Virus record (IMG/VR): IMGVR_UViG_3300047380_001399
Location: 1 to 41,799 of that record
From: a virus
Length of the DNA stretch: 41,799 nucleotides
Direction: 5' to 3' (one strand)
The notes under the pieces: generated by a model
Told to the model about the DNA's origin: nothing
Databases searched by the model: none
The model's input: only the letters and a program-made list of their open reading frames with translations
In this document: positions 3,182 through 22,919 of the stretch, piece after piece
Numbering within the stretch: position 1 is the stretch's first letter
How the letters are laid out: every line of letters begins with the position of its first letter
Program-made: the position numbers and the translations under genes

Positions 3182-3904
3182 TTAATATCCTAAATAATCG
3201 GTTAATTTTTTCATTAAGTCAAGTGATTTGTCTAAACCTTTTTCAGGTTCACCATTTACACTTCTTTGTTTTGTCTCTTCTTCAATGTTCTCATCGTACT
3301 TCATTCTATCATCTTGATTAAGGAATAAGTAAGCTCCTGGTGTTGATGGTGAAGATACTAAATCAAAACAAATTAATTCAAAATCGTCCTGCACTTCATT
3401 CCTTTCACCTTTTTTAACTAAAGAACCTACACCACGAGATGATACCCCCATAGTGACTCCCTGTCTCATAAGATTTGCCGCTTGGTCTCCTGGACATGAT
3501 ACAACACCTGTTTTATGAAAACCTGGTGATGTCAATAATTTTATTTTACCCATTAGAACATTACCTTCCCACCACATATCAGTTATCAAGTGTGATACAC
3601 GGTCTAAGTCGATAAGTGACGATTCAGGGTGATTAAGTTCTGATATCGATAATCCTTTCTTTATTGCCTCTTGGTATTTTTCACCTTCTCTCCTTAATAT
3701 TGATTCGGGATATATTCTACCGTTTCTATTTGGTGTGTCGTATTTTTGTAATACTGCGTAAAACTCAAAAGGTTTAGAATGGTCTAATTGACCGTATGAT
3801 TCTTTTATAATATCGGCGTTACGTTTATCGTTTGGGTTTATAAAACCGGCATCCCACTCAATTAAAATCCCTTTACCCGTATCATTTGGTCCTAATATTT
3901 TCAT
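3182..3904 (-). CDS. gp21: Prohead maturation protease, gp21-like
   Basis: Serine protease (family S77-like) that cleaves scaffold, capsid protein and internal head proteins, normally after [LI]xE. 240 aa, close to T4 gp21 (212 aa). Catalytic candidates are His92 in ELNHPESSLIDLDRVSHLI and Ser155 or Ser156 in TMGVSSRGVGSL, followed by FDLVSSPSTPGA (about 180-191), the conserved block after the active-site serine. N-terminal YDTPNRNGRIYP (55-66) is also typical of phage prohead proteases. It sits upstream of gp22 and gp23 in the same order as T4. Its presence predicts that proteins with [LI]xE leaders elsewhere in the window are processed. Confidence 0.92.
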   Translation of the reverse strand: MKILGPNDTGKGILIEWDAGFINPNDKRNADIIKESYGQLDHSKPFEFYAVLQKYDTPNRNGRIYPESILRREGEKYQEAIKKGLSISELNHPESSLIDLDRVSHLITDMWWEGNVLMGKIKLLTSPGFHKTGVVSCPGDQAANLMRQGVTMGVSSRGVGSLVKKGERNEVQDDFELICFDLVSSPSTPGAYLFLNQDDRMKYDENIEEETKQRSVNGEPEKGLDKSLDLMKKLTDYLGY

Positions 3905-14927: not shown

Positions 14928-15281
14928 TTACTTTCTTAAGTTTTTAATTTTATCCCTAAGTTTAATCGATTCTTCAAAATTCTCTTCAGTAATAGAAATA
15001 CCTAATTTTTCTTTTAAGTCTTTTATTTCTTTTCCATTTTTTTCCAAGTTTTTAATTTTGTCTCTAAGTTCAACCGCTAATTCAAAATTTTCTTCTGATA
15101 TAGCATTATCTAATTCTTTTTTTAATTGATTCGTATTATTATCGGTAGTACTCGTAGTCGATTTACTATCGTAATAAAAAATGTATCCATTAGGTCCTAC
15201 TTTATAGTAAGTTGGTTTTATTTCATTAAAGAATGAGTCAAACTCATCGAATAGTTCATTAAATTTTCTTTTTCCAAACAT
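14928..15281 (-). CDS. Double UVR-motif protein, possible Clp adaptor (McsA-like)
   Basis: 117 aa from ATG 15281 (MFGKRKFNELFDEFDSFF). A longer frame from a TTG at 15326 is rejected because it would run over the opposite-strand promoter element. C-terminal half holds two UVR motifs: LKKELDNAISEENFELAVELRDKIKNLE and LKEKLGISITEENFEESIKLRDKIKNL. UVR motifs mediate coiled-coil pairing in UvrB/UvrC and in McsA with the Clp/McsB system, and ClpC itself carries one. No zinc-binding cysteines of McsA are present and no UvrC nuclease domain. It is divergent from a ClpC-like gene 211 nt away, which has a UVR-like segment of its own, so a partnership is the best guess. Ends at a strong terminator, so it is a single-gene unit. 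Confidence 0.82.
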   Translation of the reverse strand: MFGKRKFNELFDEFDSFFNEIKPTYYKVGPNGYIFYYDSKSTTSTTDNNTNQLKKELDNAISEENFELAVELRDKIKNLEKNGKEIKDLKEKLGISITEENFEESIKLRDKIKNLRK

Positions 15282-15308
15282 ATTATTAGTTTTTTTTATT
15301 TTATTGTT

Positions 15309-15316
15309 TATCTTTG
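15309..15316 (+). promoter_or_regulatory. Host-type TAnnTTTG promoter element upstream of clpC
   Basis: TATCTTTG followed by TACTTAACAAATGG, the same layout as the element before the peptidase gene (TATATTTGTAC...AACAAATGG). The ATG it leads to (15327) gives only MAKNVP before a stop, so it may drive a leader of about 170 nt before clpC. Confidence 0.45.
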
Positions 15317-15356
15317 TACTTAACAAATGGCAAAAAACGTACCATAAGTTATATAA

Positions 15357-15432
15357 TGTCCATATGACTCATCATTATAGAGGAATAGTGACATAATGAC
15401 AGTTAACCTAAATTTAATATGACAAAATGTCA
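15357..15432. promoter_or_regulatory. Candidate operator repeats in the clpC leader
   Basis: Three related elements: TGTCCATATGAC (15357-15368), direct repeat TGACA-TAA-TGACA (15389-15401) and a perfect inverted repeat TGACA-AAA-TGTCA (15420-15432). Repeated TGACA/TGTCA half-sites in a 165-nt gene-free gap between divergent genes are typical of regulator binding sites, but no regulator was recognised in the window. The remaining gap holds no gene. Confidence 0.4.
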
Positions 15433-15491
15433 AGTAGTTGATAAACGAACAATTTTTGTTATATTAGTAATGATAAATTAATTAATATAAT

Positions 15492-17510
15492 ATGATAGAA
15501 GAAGTAGACCCAAACGAAAAGGGTGGTCGTAACCCTAAAGAAGTGAGTAACTCTAAAACACCTGTGTTAGATAATTTTTCTCGTGACCTAATTAAACATG
15601 CTGAACAAGGTAAACTTGACCCTGTTGTTGGTCGTGAGAGAGAAATTAATCGTATCGCACAAATCCTTTCCCGTAGAAAGAAAAACAACCCAATTATCAT
15701 TGGTGAACCAGGAGCGGGTAAAACTGCCATAGTAGAAGGTTTAGCTATGAAAATTTTTGAAGGTGATTGTCCTCAAAACTTATGTGATAAAAGAATAGTA
15801 TCATTAGATATGACATCTATTGTCGCTGGAACTAAATATCGTGGACAATTTGAAGAAAGATTAAAAGTTATCTTAGATGAGTTATATGAAAACCCTGAAA
15901 TAATTGTCTTCATTGATGAGATACACACTATTATTGGTGCAGGTAACTCTTCAGGTTCGTTAGATGCGTCTAATATATTTAAACCGGCATTAGCAAGGGG
16001 TGAACTCCAATGTATTGGGGCAACAACTCTTGATGAGTATCGAGAGAATATTGAAAAGGATGGTGCACTTGAGCGTCGTTTTCAGAAAGTAGTAGTTGAC
16101 GGTGCAACACCTAAAGAGACATTAATAATTTTACAGAATTTAAAATCAAGGTATGAATTTCATCATAAAGTAAGTTATAGTGATGAATCATTAGAGGCTT
16201 GTGTGACCTTAGCAGATAGATATATTACTGATAGAGAATTTCCTGATAAGGCAATTGATATTATGGATGAGGTAGGTGCCAGTGCGCAAATCAATGTTAA
16301 ATTACCTGAAGTTATTGAAAAGTTGAAGGAACAAGCATCATCTATAAAAGATGAGAAAATACAAGTCGTGAAATCTCAACAATATGAGAAAGCAGCAGAA
16401 CTTAGGGATAAGGAGAAAAAGATTCTAAAGAAATTAGATTCGGAAAAGGTTAAGTTTGAAAAACAAAAGGATGTTACACGTAAACCAATAACTGAAGATA
16501 TGGTTTATAATGTAGTTGCAACTATGACTAAAATTCCAGTTAGTCGTTTAAACAATGATGAAAAAGAATCTTTACTAAATCTTGAAGATAATCTCAATAC
16601 CACAGTAATTGGTCAAGAATTGGCGGTTCAAAAGATTTCAAAGGCGATACGTAGAAATCGTGTAGGAATTAAAGACCCAAATAGACCAATAGGTTCTTTT
16701 ATCTTCTTAGGTTCTACCGGTATAGGTAAAACTCATTTAGCTAAACAATTAGCTAAAGAAATTTTTGGAGATGAGGATGCGTTAATAAGAATGGATATGT
16801 CTGAATATCAAGAAAAATATACGATGTCTAGACTTATTGGTTCACCTCCCGGATATGTCGGTCATGACCAAGGAGGACAATTAACTGAAGCAGTTAAGAA
16901 TAAACCATATTCCGTAGTTTTGTTTGATGAAATTGAAAAGGCTAATAAAGATATATTCTCACTACTCTTACAAATGATGGATGATGGTCACCTTACAGAT
17001 AGTTTCGGTCGTAAAATAAATTTCAAAAATTGTTTGATAATTATGACTTCTAACTTAGGAGTTAAAAAACTTCAAGATTTCGGTACAGGTGTTGGTTTTG
17101 AAACAACAAACAGAATGTCGAATAATGAAGAAATGAAAAAAGCTCTCCTTCAAAAAGAGTTAAAAAATCATTTTACTCCTGAATTTTTAAATCGTGTTGA
17201 CGAAGTGGTGGTATTTAACCCACTAAAAGAAAAAGAAGTTTCACAAATAGTTGAGATTGAATTACTAAAATTAACAACACGTTTAGAAGATATGAACTAC
17301 AATATCACTATTAGTGATACGGTTAAAGAATTTATTTCAAATGTTGGATTTGATGAAAAATATGGGGCACGTCCGATTAAAAGAGCAATTCAAGAAAAGA
17401 TTGAAGACTTAATATCTGAAGAAGTTTTACGTGGTACAATCACTGAAGACAAACCATTTGTTCTTGATATGAAAGATGAAGAAGAACTTATTGTAAAGAA
17501 AGGGAATTAA
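15492..17510 (+). CDS. clpC: ClpC-type AAA+ unfoldase lacking the N-domain
   Basis: 672 aa Hsp100 ATPase with two AAA+ modules. D1: Walker A GEPGAGKT (71-78), pore loop KYRG (115-118), Walker B VFIDEIH (139-145). A short middle region carries a UVR-like segment ([22 protein letters not shown], 291-312), as in ClpC and unlike the long ClpB middle domain. D2: Walker A GSTGIGKT (407-414), pore loop GYVG (454-457), Walker B LFDEIEKA (477-484), Arg finger LNRVD (566-570), sensor 2 GARPIKR (625-631). GVGF (533-536) sits at the ClpP-docking loop position, so it should thread substrates into a ClpP protease, presumably the host's since none is encoded here. The roughly 145-residue Clp N-domain is absent: the protein starts at the linker ([10 protein letters not shown]) and an in-frame stop lies 3 codons upstream of the ATG. 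It ends at a terminator and is followed by a peptidase gene. Confidence 0.93.
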
Positions 17511-17527
17511 TTTTCCCTTTTCTTTTT
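17499..17527 (+). terminator. Terminator at the clpC stop codon
   Basis: AAAGGGAA (17499-17506) pairs with TTCCCTTT (17513-17520), loop TTAATT containing the stop codon, then TCTTTTTT. Because the peptidase gene has its own promoter just after it, the two genes need not share a transcript. Confidence 0.7.
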
Positions 17528-17545
17528 TATTTGAAGAATAAATTG

Positions 17546-17553
17546 TATATTTG
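17546..17553 (+). promoter_or_regulatory. Host-type TAnnTTTG promoter element before the peptidase gene
   Basis: TATATTTG, 19 nt before the ATG. A TTTG lies upstream at 17530-17533, but the 12-nt spacing is shorter than the usual 17-23 of flavobacterial promoters. Confidence 0.5.
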
Positions 17554-17572
17554 TACTCTAAATAATAAACAA

Positions 17573-18685
17573 ATGGATAATACACGACTCAATAGACTAA
17601 AAGACGTACTATCAGTACCAACAAAAACGTATCAGGAAGAAAATATGGTACAATACCTACGCGACGTATTGGATGCAATGCCCGATGTTGAGTATTATAC
17701 TGACGACATGAATAATGTCTACGCCACTAAAGGTACTTTAAATGAGGGTGAGTATTATCCAATGTTTATTGCCCACACAGACACAGTACATAGTTTGGTC
17801 GATGAAATAGTTGTTCAAGAAGAATCACTTATCAAACCCAACACCTTTGGACATACTTACGGTGATGAAGAATTTCTATCCCTAAAGGGTTATACACCAA
17901 ACGGTAGTCCAACAGGTATTGGTGGAGATGATAAGTGTGGTGTTTTTATCGCATTAGAGCTTTTAAGAGCCCTACCCAAAGTTAAAGTTGGACTATTTGT
18001 GTCCGAAGAAACGGGGTGTCACGGTTCGAGTAAATGTGATATTAACTTCTTGAACGATGTGGGTTATGCGGTTCAATTTGATGCACCTGGAAATAACTTA
18101 ATTACTGAGGTATGTTCAGGAACAAGATTGTACGAAAAGGATGGGGATTTTATTAATAAAGCTTTACCACTTTTTAATGAAATTATGGGGGTTAATGCCG
18201 ACCCACAATCTCACCCATATACTGATGTCTCTCAGATTAAACGTAAAGGGGATTTTAGTTGTATTAATTTCTCATGTGGTTATTACAATATGCACACAGA
18301 GAATGAATTTGTAGTTGTAGATGATGTTAACAGAGCGGTAGAATTTTCTATTAAATTAGTTAATAGACTTGAAAATAAGAAATATATCTATGAGTACGAA
18401 AAACCTAATTATAACGACTACGGGACTCTATTTGATGTTAATGATGACGTTTTAGGTGAGTGGGACGACTATGAAGAAGAGACCTATGAATTAGAAAATA
18501 TCACAGTAACCGATTACAAAGAAGGGTTATCAATTGAATCTAAGTTTACTGGTGACGTTATCTATATGGATGAAAGTGAAGTGGGGGAACTCTATGAAAT
18601 TTTAAGAGAAAAATTACTGTCAATGAATTATCAAGACGAACTTGATGAGGCTTCGGCAGAAGGTTCTACAAGATTTTTTAATTAA
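17573..18685 (+). CDS. Clan MH zinc peptidase (M20/M28-like aminopeptidase)
   Basis: 370 aa from ATG 17573; a TTG-initiated longer frame overlaps the promoter and is rejected. Ligand pattern of co-catalytic zinc peptidases: His68-x-Asp70 (FIAHTDTVH), Asp119/Asp120 in GIGGDDKCG, Glu145-Glu146 (FVSEETGCHGS), Asp170 (VQFDAPG) and His241 (NMHTENEFV). M20 enzymes such as peptidase T normally have a lid domain of about 100 residues between the fourth and fifth ligands; here only 70 residues separate them, so it is either a lid-less M20 or closer to M28. No signal peptide, so cytoplasmic. An acidic tail of about 90 residues (DEASAEGSTRFF end) has no recognised domain. Next to a ClpC-type unfoldase it could finish digestion of released peptides to amino acids (inference). 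Its stop overlaps the opposing gene by 4 nt. Confidence 0.85.
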   Translation: MDNTRLNRLKDVLSVPTKTYQEENMVQYLRDVLDAMPDVEYYTDDMNNVYATKGTLNEGEYYPMFIAHTDTVHSLVDEIVVQEESLIKPNTFGHTYGDEEFLSLKGYTPNGSPTGIGGDDKCGVFIALELLRALPKVKVGLFVSEETGCHGSSKCDINFLNDVGYAVQFDAPGNNLITEVCSGTRLYEKDGDFINKALPLFNEIMGVNADPQSHPYTDVSQIKRKGDFSCINFSCGYYNMHTENEFVVVDDVNRAVEFSIKLVNRLENKKYIYEYEKPNYNDYGTLFDVNDDVLGEWDDYEEETYELENITVTDYKEGLSIESKFTGDVIYMDESEVGELYEILREKLLSMNYQDELDEASAEGSTRFFN

Positions 18686-20598
18686 TCCTCAAATGGGTCA
18701 AATAATTGATAATTAGAAATTAACTTCTCTATTGTCGATAATTTGGCCCTTCCTTTTTTAATTTTCCATTGTGGGTTATTTCTACGTAGTTCAAAATCTA
18801 TTTTATTATCTTCAGGTTTTATCCCTTTTATTTCTATCGTAACATCACCATTAGGACCATTTAAAGTTTCAACTTCTATTTTTTCGTTAAAACCAAACTT
18901 TTTTTCTACCACATTAAAAATTCTTTTATATTCCTCAATATCTACATAGTCATCAGACTCCTCAATTTTTTCAAGTAACTTATCTAAAGCAGAGTCCATA
19001 GGGCTATCAAAATAATACTTAAAGGTTTCGTCATCTACGTGTTCATACGCCATATTGTGAGGTTCTTCAACATTCATACTGATATTTTCATCCATATACC
19101 ACTCTAACATTTCTTTTAAACTCAAAGATTTACTGTACTCGATATTACTGTCATACATTTTTATTAAATCATCGATTGATACTGAGTATTTATAGAAACA
19201 TGTATCTTCTAGTTTAAACCCTTCAGGTTCATATAAGTTACACAACTCATCTGTAAGTGCCTTTTGGACACCTATTTTCATAGATTCGTCTTGAGCGTTA
19301 CCATACGCATCATCAAAACTTTCGTAGAAATCGTTATCAAAATTCATTAAAAAATCACCCATTTTGGATAAAGGGAAATTATCATTATCAACTAATGATA
19401 AATCGTATAACTCATAATAATCCTTTAAATCTTTACCTAACTCTTTGAATTTTTTTAACTTTTCTCTTGATACGTTTGGAGAAGTTTTGAATGAACCTTT
19501 AAATTTATCACCAAGTAATTCAAGTATTTTTTTTAATGTTTTTAGGTGTGATGAATTAAGTGAGTACAAAGGGTACCCTTCTTTGATGTCTTCTTCAAAA
19601 TTATAACGGTCATAATAATAATTATCCATACCGTAAGGTAGTTCAATAGCGTTTGAGTAACTACTAAGTTCATAGTCTTCTAACTGTTCGTTCATTATAG
19701 AAAGAAACTCTTCAGCACCTTCAAATCTAAGGTATACTTGTTCAGTATCCATATAATTAAAATATCGTGCGGTAAGTGTTTGTTTTGAGGCCTTTAATTT
19801 ACCCTCTTTAACTTTAATTAATTTTTCGTAATCAGTATTACCTTTAAGTATTTTTTTAAGTACTTCAGAAATCGGCTCAAACCTATCAAGTAAAAAATCT
19901 TCACTCCTTTGATTATCTTTTTGGTCGTAAATCCAAATATTACCATTTTCATTAATATTAATGGCCATTTTACCTAAAGTTTCGTCACTAGACTGTTTAT
20001 CAATTACGTAAACTAATACTCCAGAATCACCATATCGATTAAAATAACTTCGATTATCTTTAGACGCCGTACACCATTTAGTATTTGCACCATAGTAACA
20101 TGACGCATCATGACTATAAGGTCTTACCACTAAAAATCTACTATCCTCATAAAGTTTATCGGTATCTTTTATGGCCTCTCTTTCTAATTCTCTATCTTTT
20201 TTCTTTTTGTCCATTGCAGATAAGACCGTTTGTAACTCCCAATATGACTTATATCTGTGTATATCTTTAGGAGCACCTTTTATATATGTGTCATTAATAC
20301 CTGAATGTAATTTTTTAGCTAAATCAATATCTTTATCAGTAATTGTTAATGATAGGTCGTGGAAAGTATTAATTAAATCTGTAATTTGAGTGATAACATC
20401 GGGAAGTGACGCACCATCATTAATTTTCATGAATTCAATTACTTGTTTAATAGTCCACTCAGAATACTTCTTAGTGCTCGATGGGTCACTATCAATAATC
20501 TTAGATATAAAATCATTATCTTTGTATATTGGCTCATCACCATACTTAGAAATAAGATTCTCTTTTTTACCTTCGTTTAATAATGTACTGAATTTCAT
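18682..20598 (-). CDS. Large phage protein with YGANTKWCT motif and T4-style leader
   Basis: 638 aa, unknown function. N-terminus MKFSTLLNEGKK closely mimics the T4 internal-protein targeting peptide (MKTYQEFIAE, cut after Glu), so the mature protein may begin at Gly10 inside the head. Residues 150-235 form a conserved-looking domain: EDSRFLVVRPYSHDASCYYGANTKWCT (Cys167, Trp175, Cys176), then LVYVIDKQ, GKMAININENGNIWIYDQKDN. I recognise the GxxTKWC-type block from other phage proteins but not its function; a reactive cysteine is possible. The remaining 400 residues are charged, with several Tyr/Asp-rich helices. Late-type motif precedes it. Convergent with the peptidase gene (4-nt overlap). 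Confidence 0.85.
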   Translation of the reverse strand: MKFSTLLNEGKKENLISKYGDEPIYKDNDFISKIIDSDPSSTKKYSEWTIKQVIEFMKINDGASLPDVITQITDLINTFHDLSLTITDKDIDLAKKLHSGINDTYIKGAPKDIHRYKSYWELQTVLSAMDKKKKDRELEREAIKDTDKLYEDSRFLVVRPYSHDASCYYGANTKWCTASKDNRSYFNRYGDSGVLVYVIDKQSSDETLGKMAININENGNIWIYDQKDNQRSEDFLLDRFEPISEVLKKILKGNTDYEKLIKVKEGKLKASKQTLTARYFNYMDTEQVYLRFEGAEEFLSIMNEQLEDYELSSYSNAIELPYGMDNYYYDRYNFEEDIKEGYPLYSLNSSHLKTLKKILELLGDKFKGSFKTSPNVSREKLKKFKELGKDLKDYYELYDLSLVDNDNFPLSKMGDFLMNFDNDFYESFDDAYGNAQDESMKIGVQKALTDELCNLYEPEGFKLEDTCFYKYSVSIDDLIKMYDSNIEYSKSLSLKEMLEWYMDENISMNVEEPHNMAYEHVDDETFKYYFDSPMDSALDKLLEKIEESDDYVDIEEYKRIFNVVEKKFGFNEKIEVETLNGPNGDVTIEIKGIKPEDNKIDFELRRNNPQWKIKKGRAKLSTIEKLISNYQLFDPFED

Positions 20599-20605
20599 TT
20601 AAAAC

Positions 20606-20620
20606 TTTTATAATAAATAG
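20606..20620 (-). promoter_or_regulatory. Late-type motif
   Basis: Sense strand CTATTTATTATAAAA, 7 nt before the ATG of the KWCT-motif gene. Confidence 0.55.
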
Positions 20621-20651
20621 TATATTAATAGGATAATTGGTTTTAAAGGCT

Positions 20652-20659
20652 TATATTTG
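20652..20659 (+). promoter_or_regulatory. Host-type TAnnTTTG promoter element
   Basis: TATATTTG only 4 nt before the ATG of the secreted CAP-like gene, so the transcript would start at or very near the start codon (leaderless). Confidence 0.5.
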
Positions 20660-20663
20660 TTAT

Positions 20664-21179
20664 ATGAAAAAGATACTACTAATATTACTAACACTTATTT
20701 CTATCGTAAGTTACTCACAGGACTTAGGTGAAATACAAAGACATTTACTGAATTTAGTAAATGAAGAAAGAAGTAATAGAGGTTTAAGTACTTTTGTAAC
20801 CGACACACTAATAAATAATGGGGCTAAAATACATACCGATTACTTAAGTACGATAAGAAGTTACAAACAAGTGTCCCACACTAATCCTAACTTAAAATAT
20901 AAATACCCATCTGATAGAATTAAAATTGCAAGTAATTCAAAATATACTAATTCATCAGAAAATGTAACCGCGTTTACCTACGACTCATCTAAAACAGATT
21001 TAGAAATCGCTACACAAGCTCATAATAATTTTATGAATTCAAAATACCATAAAATGAATGTTTTAACTGAATATGGGGATTATCTTAATGAAGGTTATAT
21101 ATTACCAAGTCACTATGGTCACCACGTTGTTTACAATAAAAAATTGAATGCAATTATTGTAGTTCAAATGTTTCCGTAA
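20664..21179 (+). CDS. Secreted CAP/SCP-like protein
   Basis: 171 aa from ATG 20664; the preceding TTG start would overlap the promoter. Signal peptide MKKILLILLTLISIVSYSQ (basic start, hydrophobic core, cut probably after SYSQ). Mature part resembles the bacterial CAP superfamily: RHLLNLVNEERSNRGLSTF, HTDYLSTIRSYKQVSHTNP, SSENVTAF, AHNNFMNSKYHKMNVL, GHHVVYNKKLNAIIVVQMF. The usual CAP signature residues (two His and two Glu/Asp) are partly present: His in SHT, Glu in SSEN, His in KYHKMN. Role outside the cytoplasm, e.g. periplasmic; phage function unknown, possibly altering the infected cell envelope. Host-type promoter, so probably expressed without late factors. Confidence 0.82.
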   Translation: MKKILLILLTLISIVSYSQDLGEIQRHLLNLVNEERSNRGLSTFVTDTLINNGAKIHTDYLSTIRSYKQVSHTNPNLKYKYPSDRIKIASNSKYTNSSENVTAFTYDSSKTDLEIATQAHNNFMNSKYHKMNVLTEYGDYLNEGYILPSHYGHHVVYNKKLNAIIVVQMFP

Positions 21180-21191
21180 AATAAATTATAA

Positions 21192-22442
21192 TTAACCCCT
21201 TCTTTGATTAGAGAACGTAAAGATTATATCTTTTAAATAAGCTACTTTAATCTTCTCACCATCCACCACTGCAGTTCTAACGGCAGATTTAGTAGTAATT
21301 TTTGGGGAATAGTAACTTATTGGACCATCAGTTGCCGGATTTGGATTTGTAGTCCCTATCATCGGTGGTCGAGTACCTAACATACCAACTAACTTTCCGT
21401 CAACTATGAAACCACTATCGGTAAGTTTAGCATCTAAGACTCCGTCAAACTCCCAATCAATACCTAACTCATCTGCACGTTCAACACTAAGTGCCAAGTG
21501 CCAAGTACCATTACCGTAACTGTCCCAAACTCTATAACCTTCTCTATATTTACCTACTCCGTCAGCATAAACAGGAACCATCCACTTTGTTGACTCATTC
21601 TTAATCTTTTTACCAGGTGTTTTTTCTCCATCAATTTTTAATTCATTTTTTACTTCATATTGTTCAGCATTTGGTTCTAAAGTAATTTTTCTGAATTCCT
21701 CACCTCTTTTATCGTCGCCTTGTCCGTAGAAGTTATCTCCCTTTTTTACTTTGATTTTTAAATCGAATCCTGTTTCTTCTTTAATTGCGTTAATTAAAGC
21801 TTGTGCGTATTGATTAGCCCTCATATCAGCTAAATACTGATTCATTTCTTTAGGGTCAGTTTTACCGTTATATGGTTTTGCACTTGGGTGGTCTAATTTA
21901 GAATAACCACTTGGTACCTTTAACGTAGGTGTACCTGAATCGGCACTACCCTTAATTGTTACATTAGTTAATTTATCCCCTCCACCAGCATTTATATATT
22001 TAATAAAATCGTTTACAATCTTCTTAAACTGTACATTAGCCTCAGGATACTTATCAAAGTAAGGCATAACCATATTATCCGCATATGGAAGACTACTTCC
22101 CTGTACGTTATATATTGGAATGGTAACTATAACGTTAGGTGGTGTTTCTTTACCTGGTATTTCCTTACCACCACCAACTAACTTAGTTATGTATCTAATG
22201 TCATATCTACCTTCACCTACATTTACCGCTAATGGATTTGTTGGGTTAACATCAAAGTTAAGTGAACCAGAAACTTCCTGATTCCAATTTTCAGACCTAC
22301 CCTTCTGTTCATATTTTTTTCTGTCTCGTCTAGAAAACTTTGTTTTAACACCAGTTAAATCACCTCTTCTCTGTTCTTCAATTACTTGTTTTACGATATT
22401 TTCAATATCACCTTCCGTTAACTTTATATGTCTTTTAACCAT
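21192..22442 (-). CDS. Virion-type protein with [LI]xE leader and possible OmpA-like domain
   Basis: 416 aa. N-terminus MVKRHIKLTEGDIENIVKQVIEEQ is a leader with LTE-10 and IEE-23 cleavage-like signals, shared in style with other proteins here. Residues 135-230 vaguely fit an OmpA-like peptidoglycan-associating domain: FKKIVNDFIKYINAGGGDKLTNVTIKGSADSGTP, then MNQYLADMRANQYAQALINAIKEE, the N-x-x-L-x-x-x-RA pattern. The C-terminal 170 residues are beta-rich with WHLALSVERADELGIDWEFDG. If correct, a tail or ejected protein that touches the cell wall; the OmpA-like match is weak. Convergent with the CAP gene, 12 nt apart, no terminator seen. Confidence 0.8.
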   Translation of the reverse strand: MVKRHIKLTEGDIENIVKQVIEEQRRGDLTGVKTKFSRRDRKKYEQKGRSENWNQEVSGSLNFDVNPTNPLAVNVGEGRYDIRYITKLVGGGKEIPGKETPPNVIVTIPIYNVQGSSLPYADNMVMPYFDKYPEANVQFKKIVNDFIKYINAGGGDKLTNVTIKGSADSGTPTLKVPSGYSKLDHPSAKPYNGKTDPKEMNQYLADMRANQYAQALINAIKEETGFDLKIKVKKGDNFYGQGDDKRGEEFRKITLEPNAEQYEVKNELKIDGEKTPGKKIKNESTKWMVPVYADGVGKYREGYRVWDSYGNGTWHLALSVERADELGIDWEFDGVLDAKLTDSGFIVDGKLVGMLGTRPPMIGTTNPNPATDGPISYYSPKITTKSAVRTAVVDGEKIKVAYLKDIIFTFSNQRRG

Positions 22443-22453
22443 TTTTAATGTAT

Positions 22454-22468
22454 TTTTATTATAAATAG
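22454..22468 (-). promoter_or_regulatory. Late-type motif
   Basis: Sense strand CTATTTATAATAAAA, 11 nt before the ATG of the 416-aa gene. Confidence 0.55.
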
Positions 22469-22491
22469 TTTCTTATTAGAAAAAAAGTATT

Positions 22492-22499
22492 TATATTTG
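22492..22499 (+). promoter_or_regulatory. Host-type promoter element of the tmRNA gene
   Basis: TATATTTG, 30 nt before the mature 5' end of the tmRNA. TTTC lies 19 nt upstream (22469-22472) in place of the TTTG -33 element. The precursor would carry a short 5' extension removed by RNase P. Confidence 0.5.
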
Positions 22500-22529
22500 T
22501 ACCAAGAAACAAATGTTCTTTGAAAATAT

Positions 22530-22919
22530 GGGGGCGAATGGAATTGATTGGCAGGGTCAGTTATACGGGGCACGTAGTCAAACTTCATCTATGACTTAAA
22601 TCTATGATGGAAATTTTTTAGACGGCAACGTACTAAACAAAATGTCAGCTCTAGGTTTACTTAGAACTGAACAAGTAGCTGTAGCGTAAGACGTTAACAG
22701 TGAAGAGGGGTCGGTCAGGACATATACCTTTCAACAGAAGTCCGTTGTGTGGTGGAAAAACGATTAAACCCTAAATTGAATCGTACATCTATTGTTAGTG
22801 GAGGATGTAAAAATTGAACTAAATATTACGGAACATTGTGAACTAATGTTGTCCTAAACGTGTAGTCCTTTATAGGTGGACTGAACAAGACGCGGGTTCG
22901 AATCCCGCCGCCTCCACCA
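22530..22919 (+). ncRNA. ssrA: tmRNA (transfer-messenger RNA), phage-encoded
   Basis: 390 nt, complete. Acceptor stem GGGGGCG (22530-22536) pairs with CGCCTCC (22909-22915), including a G3-U70 wobble (22532 with 22913), the identity element for alanyl-tRNA synthetase. Discriminator A and an encoded CCA follow (22916-22919). The T arm is GCGGG-TTCGAAT-CCCGC (22892-22908), and the 5' section GAATGGAATTGATTGGCAGGG resembles the conserved tmRNA start. UAGAC directly before the resume codon (22619-22623) matches the UAGUC signal of E. coli. tmRNA with SmpB (not found here, so presumably host) rescues stalled ribosomes and adds a degradation tag. Pseudoknots were not modelled. It has a host-type promoter and a strong terminator. 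An opposite-strand frame over its 3' end is an artefact of the T arm. Confidence 0.95.
22624..22689 (+). other. tmRNA tag-peptide reading frame, 21 codons
   Basis: Resume codon GGC (Gly, as in Bacteroidetes tmRNAs). The tag begins GNVLNKMSALGLL, continues RTEQ and ends VAVA before TAA. Host-type tags are about 9-10 residues ending ALAA. This one is twice as long, contains Leu-rich hydrophobic residues and ends VAVA rather than LAA. Confidence 0.85.

Follow-up and report, generated by a model that had tools for sequence, protein, structure and literature searches.

The stretch of DNA analysed here (hereafter the window), record IMGVR_UViG_3300047380_001399 of IMG/VR, is linear viral DNA of 41,799 bp with portal and terminase genes of phage type, and it raises the question of what a phage gains from carrying a transfer-messenger RNA (tmRNA) gene together with a gene for an unfoldase of the ClpC type. 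An original prediction, made from the sequence alone, proposed that a UVR-motif protein, ClpC, a clan-MH peptidase and the tmRNA form a protein tagging and degradation module. All four features were confirmed in place by Rfam and Pfam searches; the tag encoded by the tmRNA, which is the most striking part of the locus, was not examined in that prediction. This analysis identified a 21-residue tag that is conserved in related phages and of another type than the tags of the likely host family, and a near-invariant association between this tmRNA and a ClpC that lacks the N-domain. The window belongs to a large group of uncultured T4-like phages that carry their own tmRNA and their own unfoldase. 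The features concerned are listed below.

22530–22919, plus strand: one-piece tmRNA (ssrA) with a 7-bp acceptor stem, G3-U70 and an encoded CCA end (Rfam RF00023).
22624–22689, plus strand: tag frame, with the GGC resume codon at 22624, 21 codons reading GNVLNKMSALGLLRTEQVAVA, and TAA at 22687–22689 (frame kept in relatives).
15492–17510, plus strand: ClpC-type double AAA+ unfoldase of 672 amino acids (aa) without an N-domain, with a GVGF ClpP loop at residues 533–536 and a UVR motif at 280–312 (Pfam and alignment).
17573–18685, plus strand: di-metal peptidase of clan MH (M42/PepT-like), encoded immediately after clpC, with an alternative TTG start at 17531 (Pfam M42 and ligand alignment).
14928–15281, minus strand: protein with two UVR motifs, divergent from clpC, an optional member of the locus (Pfam UVR).

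A complete tmRNA with a conserved tag

The window tmRNA matches Rfam RF00023 over its full length (positions 1–374 of 374) with 84.7 bits, where the gathering threshold is 47, and an E value of 1.3e-31. Searching phage records with it by blastn matched short end pieces and nothing more. In 27/27 distinct complete tmRNAs, including that of the window and leaving aside three truncated ones, the acceptor stem is paired at 7/7 positions and carries G3-U70; the remaining acceptor pairs vary on both sides. Because the acceptor is fully paired and G3-U70 is present in all 27, it is likely that the phage tmRNA can be charged by the host alanyl-tRNA synthetase (AlaRS). The 3′ end in the window is CCACCA. 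In some relatives it is CTA, CAA or CTT, and these tmRNAs would depend on CCA repair.

ARAGORN at default settings reported no tmRNA in the window and none in many relatives, and in others it shortened the tags. Tags were therefore read from the GGC aligned with the host resume codon, rather than from ARAGORN output. The window tag read in this way, GNVLNKMSALGLLRTEQVAVA, has 21 residues, ends in AVA and is followed by the TAA stop at 22687. Relatives were drawn from three sets of records, selected by ClpC, by tag and by terminase, which overlap and all lie in one clade. The ClpC-selected set gave 41 tmRNAs including that of the window, 30 of them distinct; GETFAKLQAVGLLRTEEVYAA and GNTIAKLSTLGLIRTEEVTVA are examples of their tags. 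Of the 41, 39 fit a strict tag pattern, and the remaining two (L122 and L123) read GNVYNEMAMFGLVADEAIVNA, also of 21 aa.

The 23 distinct 21-codon tag DNAs in the ClpC-selected set were joined in a minimum spanning tree, and substitutions were counted along its edges. In the tag frame, synonymous single changes number 57 and nonsynonymous ones 27, and third positions account for 91 of the 159 changes; the other two frames over the same region have 22 against 71 and 7 against 89. These counts indicate that the tag peptide is under codon-level selection. G11, L12 and A21 are present in 23/23 of these tags, and R14 and V18 in 22/23; the conserved core, K....GL.RTEEV, sits well inside the tag and not at the C-terminus alone.

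Searches of viral contigs with two tag DNA patterns gave 109 and at least 119 partly overlapping stretches. Translation yields the 21- or 22-aa tag in nearly all of them; contig ends truncate L369 and L436, and L458 matches by chance. In a larger, partly pattern-selected set of 79 distinct tag DNAs and 55 peptides, A21 was present in 72/72; its search patterns fixed some residues, so its conservation figures are supporting only. The least biased set, the terminase-selected tmRNAs, has tags of 21 aa (10) or 22 aa (1) in 11/11, all ending in VA. For L081, L087, L113, L115, L634, L635 and L638, ARAGORN independently agrees on the 21- or 22-aa tag; for other relatives its tags are shortened or missing, and for the relative L632 and the host L228 it reports a different peptide. 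The comparative evidence for the predicted tag is strong.

Endings among the relatives include TVA, AVA, SVA, YAA and others, and neither the window tag nor those of its relatives ends as a canonical ssrA degron would, in LAA or in the host-family form [AS][LM]AA. One tag peptide gave no match by tblastn in 50,697 phage records, for which a 21-aa query is insensitive. Tag-like C-termini were found on none of 1239 distinct open reading frames (ORFs) of at least 100 aa in the phages, where the rough expectation is far below one. C-terminal alanine is slightly scarce (1.6 % against 2.7 %), and the numbers of AA and VA ends, 1 and 3, are close to the 0.9 and 2.0 expected by chance.

Comparison with the likely hosts

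The window terminase matches those of T4-like phages, and its best cultured hits are Flavobacterium phages at 26 % identity. Because of these hits, and because the phage ClpC groups with ClpCs of Bacteroidota (branch support 84/92), bacteria of the Flavobacteriaceae type are the probable hosts of the window phages. A genome titled Flavobacteriaceae bacterium AqS4 led to the family used for comparison, in which 56 of 60 genomes have a tmRNA over the cut-off. Tags were read at 31 host loci, the 30 best-scoring of the host tmRNA search plus L221. All 31 have 9 aa, mostly GENNYALAA, and end in AA (25 by alignment reading and 6 by ARAGORN). Host and phage tmRNAs are alike in being one-piece and in having a glycine resume codon after similar upstream sequence. 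However, the phage tags, of 21–22 aa and ending in VA or AA, are unrelated to the host tags beyond the first two residues. Recognition of tmRNA tags by Clp unfoldases, on which the original prediction relied, is known for tags of the host type, and the phage tag is of another type.

Co-occurrence of the tmRNA and ClpC

ClpC was found in 50/50 tag-selected records, at 67–100 % identity, one of them (G164) having it in two pieces at 67 % and 57 %. These 50 were picked from 60 tag-bearing records of at least 60 kb among the matches listed. The ClpC-selected set comprises 80 loci, ten of which were not in the tmRNA search, and a tmRNA was found by Rfam in 40 of 70 records (38 over the cut-off and two partial; a short tRNA-like match in G063 is uncounted). 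Where these records reach at least 60 kb, a tmRNA or tag is present in 18/18, 16 by Rfam and two (G011 and G070) by tag pattern. The terminase set is the nearest 80 of at least 580 relatives, all inside the window clade. Within it, all 27 loci whose upstream flank reaches 9 kb have ClpC. A tmRNA over the cut-off is present in 11 of its 13 records of at least 60 kb; the remaining two stop short of the expected locus, 4.3 and 2.8 kb upstream of the terminase. The co-occurrence of tmRNA and ClpC is near-invariant, and it is more than chance because ClpC is present in 50/50 large records picked by the tmRNA tag.

The peptidase gene is present, whole or in part, at 76 of the 80 ClpC loci, and at the other four the contig ends within about 150 bp after ClpC. 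Joint occurrence in related phages had been put forward as a check on all four genes of the proposed module. The tmRNA, ClpC and peptidase are found together in the related phage records examined, and the UVR gene is a less regular member, lying divergent within 1.5 kb of clpC at 59 of the 80 ClpC loci. Two further UVR genes were found by tblastn, one farther from clpC (L034) and one cut (L053). The genes between the peptidase and the tmRNA vary among relatives.

An unfoldase without the N-domain

The window ClpC has the Pfam domains AAA_2, AAA and ClpB_D2-small and a UVR motif (280–312) in the middle domain, and no match to Clp_N, the N-terminal domain, was found in it by Pfam. It shares two AAA modules, the middle-domain UVR motif and a VGF ClpP loop with the ClpCs of Bacillus subtilis, Staphylococcus aureus and Bacteroidota. 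The N-domain, which is the part used by host adaptors, is present in those proteins but missing in the phage members measured. No more than 103 open residues lie ahead of the first AAA module at the 107 phage loci measured, against 178–265 in the bacterial relatives (16/20, where the landmark was found). Two records have longer ClpC open frames (794 aa), in which the first methionine is only 53 residues before the landmark, and these are therefore also judged to have no N-domain.

The GVGF at residues 533–536 is where the original prediction placed it, and in sequence alignment it falls on KYVGF of B. subtilis ClpC, the ClpP-contact loop. The form [VIL]GF is kept at 108/108 ClpC loci from 96 records and 71 distinct proteins, as GVGF (96), GIGF (6), GLGF (5) and SVGF (1); L038 and L045 are incomplete and uncounted. 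The 21 phage ClpCs in the tree form a single clade with support 100/100.

At two loci, L529 (in G149) and L528 (in G156), clpC is broken in Walker A, reading GEPG-C... and then ...SHN-CGKT, with stops between and a further ORF in G156; the interruption looks like an intein, probably split. The clpC of G164 (51528–53521) is split in two, with stop codons at the point of interruption, and may be a pseudogene or reflect a sequencing error or another insertion. On the window, PADLOC gave AAA-type matches for ClpC and a weak match for the UVR protein.

ClpP and SmpB

No ClpP was found in the 41.8-kb window record. A second record, G001 (198,834 bp), of which 22 kb is 99.96 % identical to the window, encodes ClpP about 40 kb from ClpC. 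This ClpP scores 191.6 bits against PF00574 and is below the NCBIfam cut-offs; its GMAASMG, its MLHQ and the Asp of its ASRDLW (Ser/His/Asp) align with solved ClpPs. ClpP is present in 13/50 tag-selected records and in eight of the 22 that reach 150 kb. In the sub-clade of the window (ClpC identity of at least 77 %) it is present in seven of 13 records, including 5/5 of at least 150 kb. SmpB was found alongside the tmRNA in only one of the 50 tag-selected records, and therefore host SmpB must serve the phage tmRNA. The original prediction expected host parts to be needed; this stands for SmpB, and for ClpP it gives way where, as in the near-identical G001, the phage has its own.

The sole SmpB among the 50 is in G156 (L506 and L527), a 296-kb record that has SmpB, ClpP, ClpC and the tag pattern together.

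A proposed phage degradation route

The reading to which an even chance is given, drawn from gene complement and conservation, is that proteins on stalled ribosomes receive a degron encoded by the phage and are then degraded by the phage's ClpC together with ClpP of phage or host origin. The phage tmRNA, charged by host AlaRS as its conserved parts suggest, would enter with host SmpB into ribosomes stalled on broken mRNAs, and the phage-specific 21-residue tag ending in VA would be appended in place of the host GENNYALAA. Because the tag and ClpC are conserved together, the ClpP loop is kept and the N-domain is missing, it may be supposed that the phage ClpC reads the tag; this N-less, adaptor-blind unfoldase would do so directly through its pore. 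Tagged chains would then pass from ClpC into ClpP, which would be the phage enzyme where the phage encodes one, as in the window species, and otherwise that of the host; the peptides released would be trimmed by the neighbouring metallopeptidase. The gain would be that ribosomes are kept turning during takeover and that truncated chains are disposed of by a phage-controlled route. Held more tentatively is the proposal of an orthogonal degron system. In it, a 21-residue tag and an adaptor-blind ClpC, both private to the phage and in some lineages joined by phage ClpP, would let trans-translation products escape host ClpXP; long tags of this kind would have been evolved or exchanged by two unrelated groups of phages, both of which probably infect flavobacteria.

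A number of observations weigh against degradation of tagged proteins by the phage ClpC. The tag ends in VA, sometimes AA, and not in the LAA known for Clp unfoldases. The carriers all come from a single clade of viruses, and their co-occurrence thus does not represent many independent events; in the nine records measured 1.1–6.5 kb, with other genes, separate ClpC from the tmRNA. ClpP was not found in 14 of the 22 records of at least 150 kb, which may be fragments, nor SmpB in 49 of the 50 tag-selected records. The parts also occur separately: the huge phages LR745206 and LR756502 carry a related N-less ClpC and no tmRNA over the cut-off, and in the Cellulophaga phage Calle a long-tag tmRNA is accompanied by a related peptidase, with no Clp protein in the annotation.

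Several of these points would suit a tag that protects. With VA in place of LAA, ribosomes would be rescued and the tagged proteins spared host ClpXP, and ClpC and ClpP would serve, for example, virion assembly or host-protein turnover; the absence of LAA, a length more than twice that of host tags, the two huge phages with ClpC and no tmRNA over the cut-off, and the long tag of Calle all agree with this. However, conservation along the full length of the tag suggests a reader, and loss of LAA alone would not need 21 conserved residues; protection is considered unlikely. It is likewise unlikely that the tmRNA, ClpC, peptidase and ClpP are separate auxiliary genes from the ancestor of one clade, kept for separate reasons. 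The 21 phage ClpCs do form one clade, and at the distances given above for the tmRNA and, in G001, for ClpP the genes are not one operon, but ClpC and tag are both kept over wide divergence in 50/50 records, whereas the UVR gene and the intervening genes come and go.

The amino-acid recycling suggested by the original prediction, in which host proteins would be tagged, degraded and trimmed to feed phage synthesis, is quite improbable. The peptidase adjoins ClpC and has its metal ligands intact, and the same has been proposed for phage Melnitz (PMC9004378). Nevertheless, there is no sign of bulk proteolysis in the sequence, and the targets of tmRNA are stalled nascent chains, not folded host proteins. 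Only a slight probability is given to the long tag being an active peptide that is delivered by tagging; it might, for instance, be a helix able to block or redirect host ClpXP or another host factor. The position of the conserved core well inside the tag would fit, as would the longer tag of an unrelated family (Calle and phi38:1), with an M-E...EV.V spacing similar to that in part of the window clade; against it, we know of no sequence similar to the phage tag.

Relation to known phage systems

Phage tmRNAs have been reported in mycobacteriophages and phage G (PMC4131195), Wildcat (PMC7474061), the OM43 phage Melnitz (PMC9004378) and Calle (PMC8776804). Phage Clp proteins are likewise on record, with ClpP, ClpS, ClpA and ClpX in jumbo phages (PMC7824862), ClpP in marine viral genomes (PMC5332604), and Gp53 of SPO1 as an adaptor-like protein for ClpCP (PMC6873191). 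The window clade resembles the former in having a complete tmRNA in a phage, and Calle and phi38:1 also have a long tag and a nearby related peptidase, but the portions of these reports available describe no conserved phage-clade tag or paired phage ClpC. The Melnitz tmRNA differs in being two-piece, and that of the huge phage LR756500 in its short tag, GNNAEMRMAA. SPO1 Gp53 and the jumbo-phage Clp proteins are alike in acting in or on Clp proteolysis; as far as the available text goes, they are described as single parts, whereas in the window clade the unfoldase, often the protease, and the tag maker travel together. No report of this tag, of a clade-wide phage-specific tag or of a phage tmRNA–ClpC pairing was found in the literature searched, the coverage of which was incomplete. 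Within that coverage, phage tmRNAs and phage Clp proteins are already known, and the clade-wide phage-specific tag and its pairing with ClpC appear to be new.

To the question of why phages carry tmRNA, a conserved non-host tag with a dedicated unfoldase in every case examined offers a specific and testable answer, namely that the phage replaces both the host's label and the label's reader. If this is true, most of one branch of protein quality control can be encoded by a virus, and the pair of degron and unfoldase would be an orthogonal one for use in biotechnology. Part of the proposal can already be tested in Calle and phi38:1, long-tag phages that are in culture.

In Calle and phi38:1 the long-tag tmRNA lies about 1.3 kb ahead of the related peptidase (10.7 kb of phi38:1 was covered), at 42950–43309 of Calle_1 (L545) and 3324–3683 of the phi38:1 stretch (L547). 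Their tag is even longer than that of the window clade; read from GGA, that of Calle is GNNTNAVNAQIEANMEAVNAILNLEVAVGV, and ARAGORN gives the last 22 residues for both phages. The tmRNA is unannotated in the phi38:1 stretch, and the Calle record MT732432 places it about 52 bases off. In another huge phage, LR756508, the ClpC is more distant, and the tag that ARAGORN gives for its tmRNA is unlike those of the window clade.

The peptidase, the UVR protein and neighbouring genes

The peptidase scores 28.7 bits against Pfam M42 (cut-off 23.2) and is below the NCBIfam cut-offs. H68, D119, D120, E145, E146, D170 and H241 are invariant in 14/14 aligned peptidases, including that of the window, and by analogy with the PepT pattern we take these to be the di-metal sites and the catalytic Glu. 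The structure model (pLDDT 80, pTM 0.73) matches PepT and tetrahedral (TET) aminopeptidases in a fold search, with a TM of about 0.5. In more distant relatives, including L060, L063 and L074, the peptidase is on the strand opposite clpC and without a C-terminal extension, and clpC and the peptidase are therefore not a fixed operon.

The UVR protein of the window has two UVR stretches (53.7 bits against a Pfam cut-off of 21.5). McsA, an activator of protein-arginine kinase defined by its zinc-binding cysteine pairs, is its best NCBIfam match and shares the UVR motif. However, the score is 46 bits against a cut-off of 210, the phage protein has a second UVR motif and no cysteine, and no CxxC occurs in 39 distinct relatives (no cysteine in 23, one in 15 and two in one). 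Identity with McsA was therefore rejected, and the likeness to McsA-type Clp adaptors drawn in the original prediction is not upheld for a protein that also stands beside only 59 of the 80 ClpCs. No match to the UVR protein was found in phage records. Its structure model is weak (pLDDT 70, pTM 0.42) and gave no match at E of 0.001 or below in a fold search, the weak hits including McsA and ClpC structures.

Two further genes lie between the peptidase and the tmRNA. A 638-aa protein at 18682–20598, convergent with the peptidase gene, has a weak match to phrog_17056 only and is variable among relatives. At 20637–21179 a small protein with a signal-peptide-like start has a weak match to phrog_16914.

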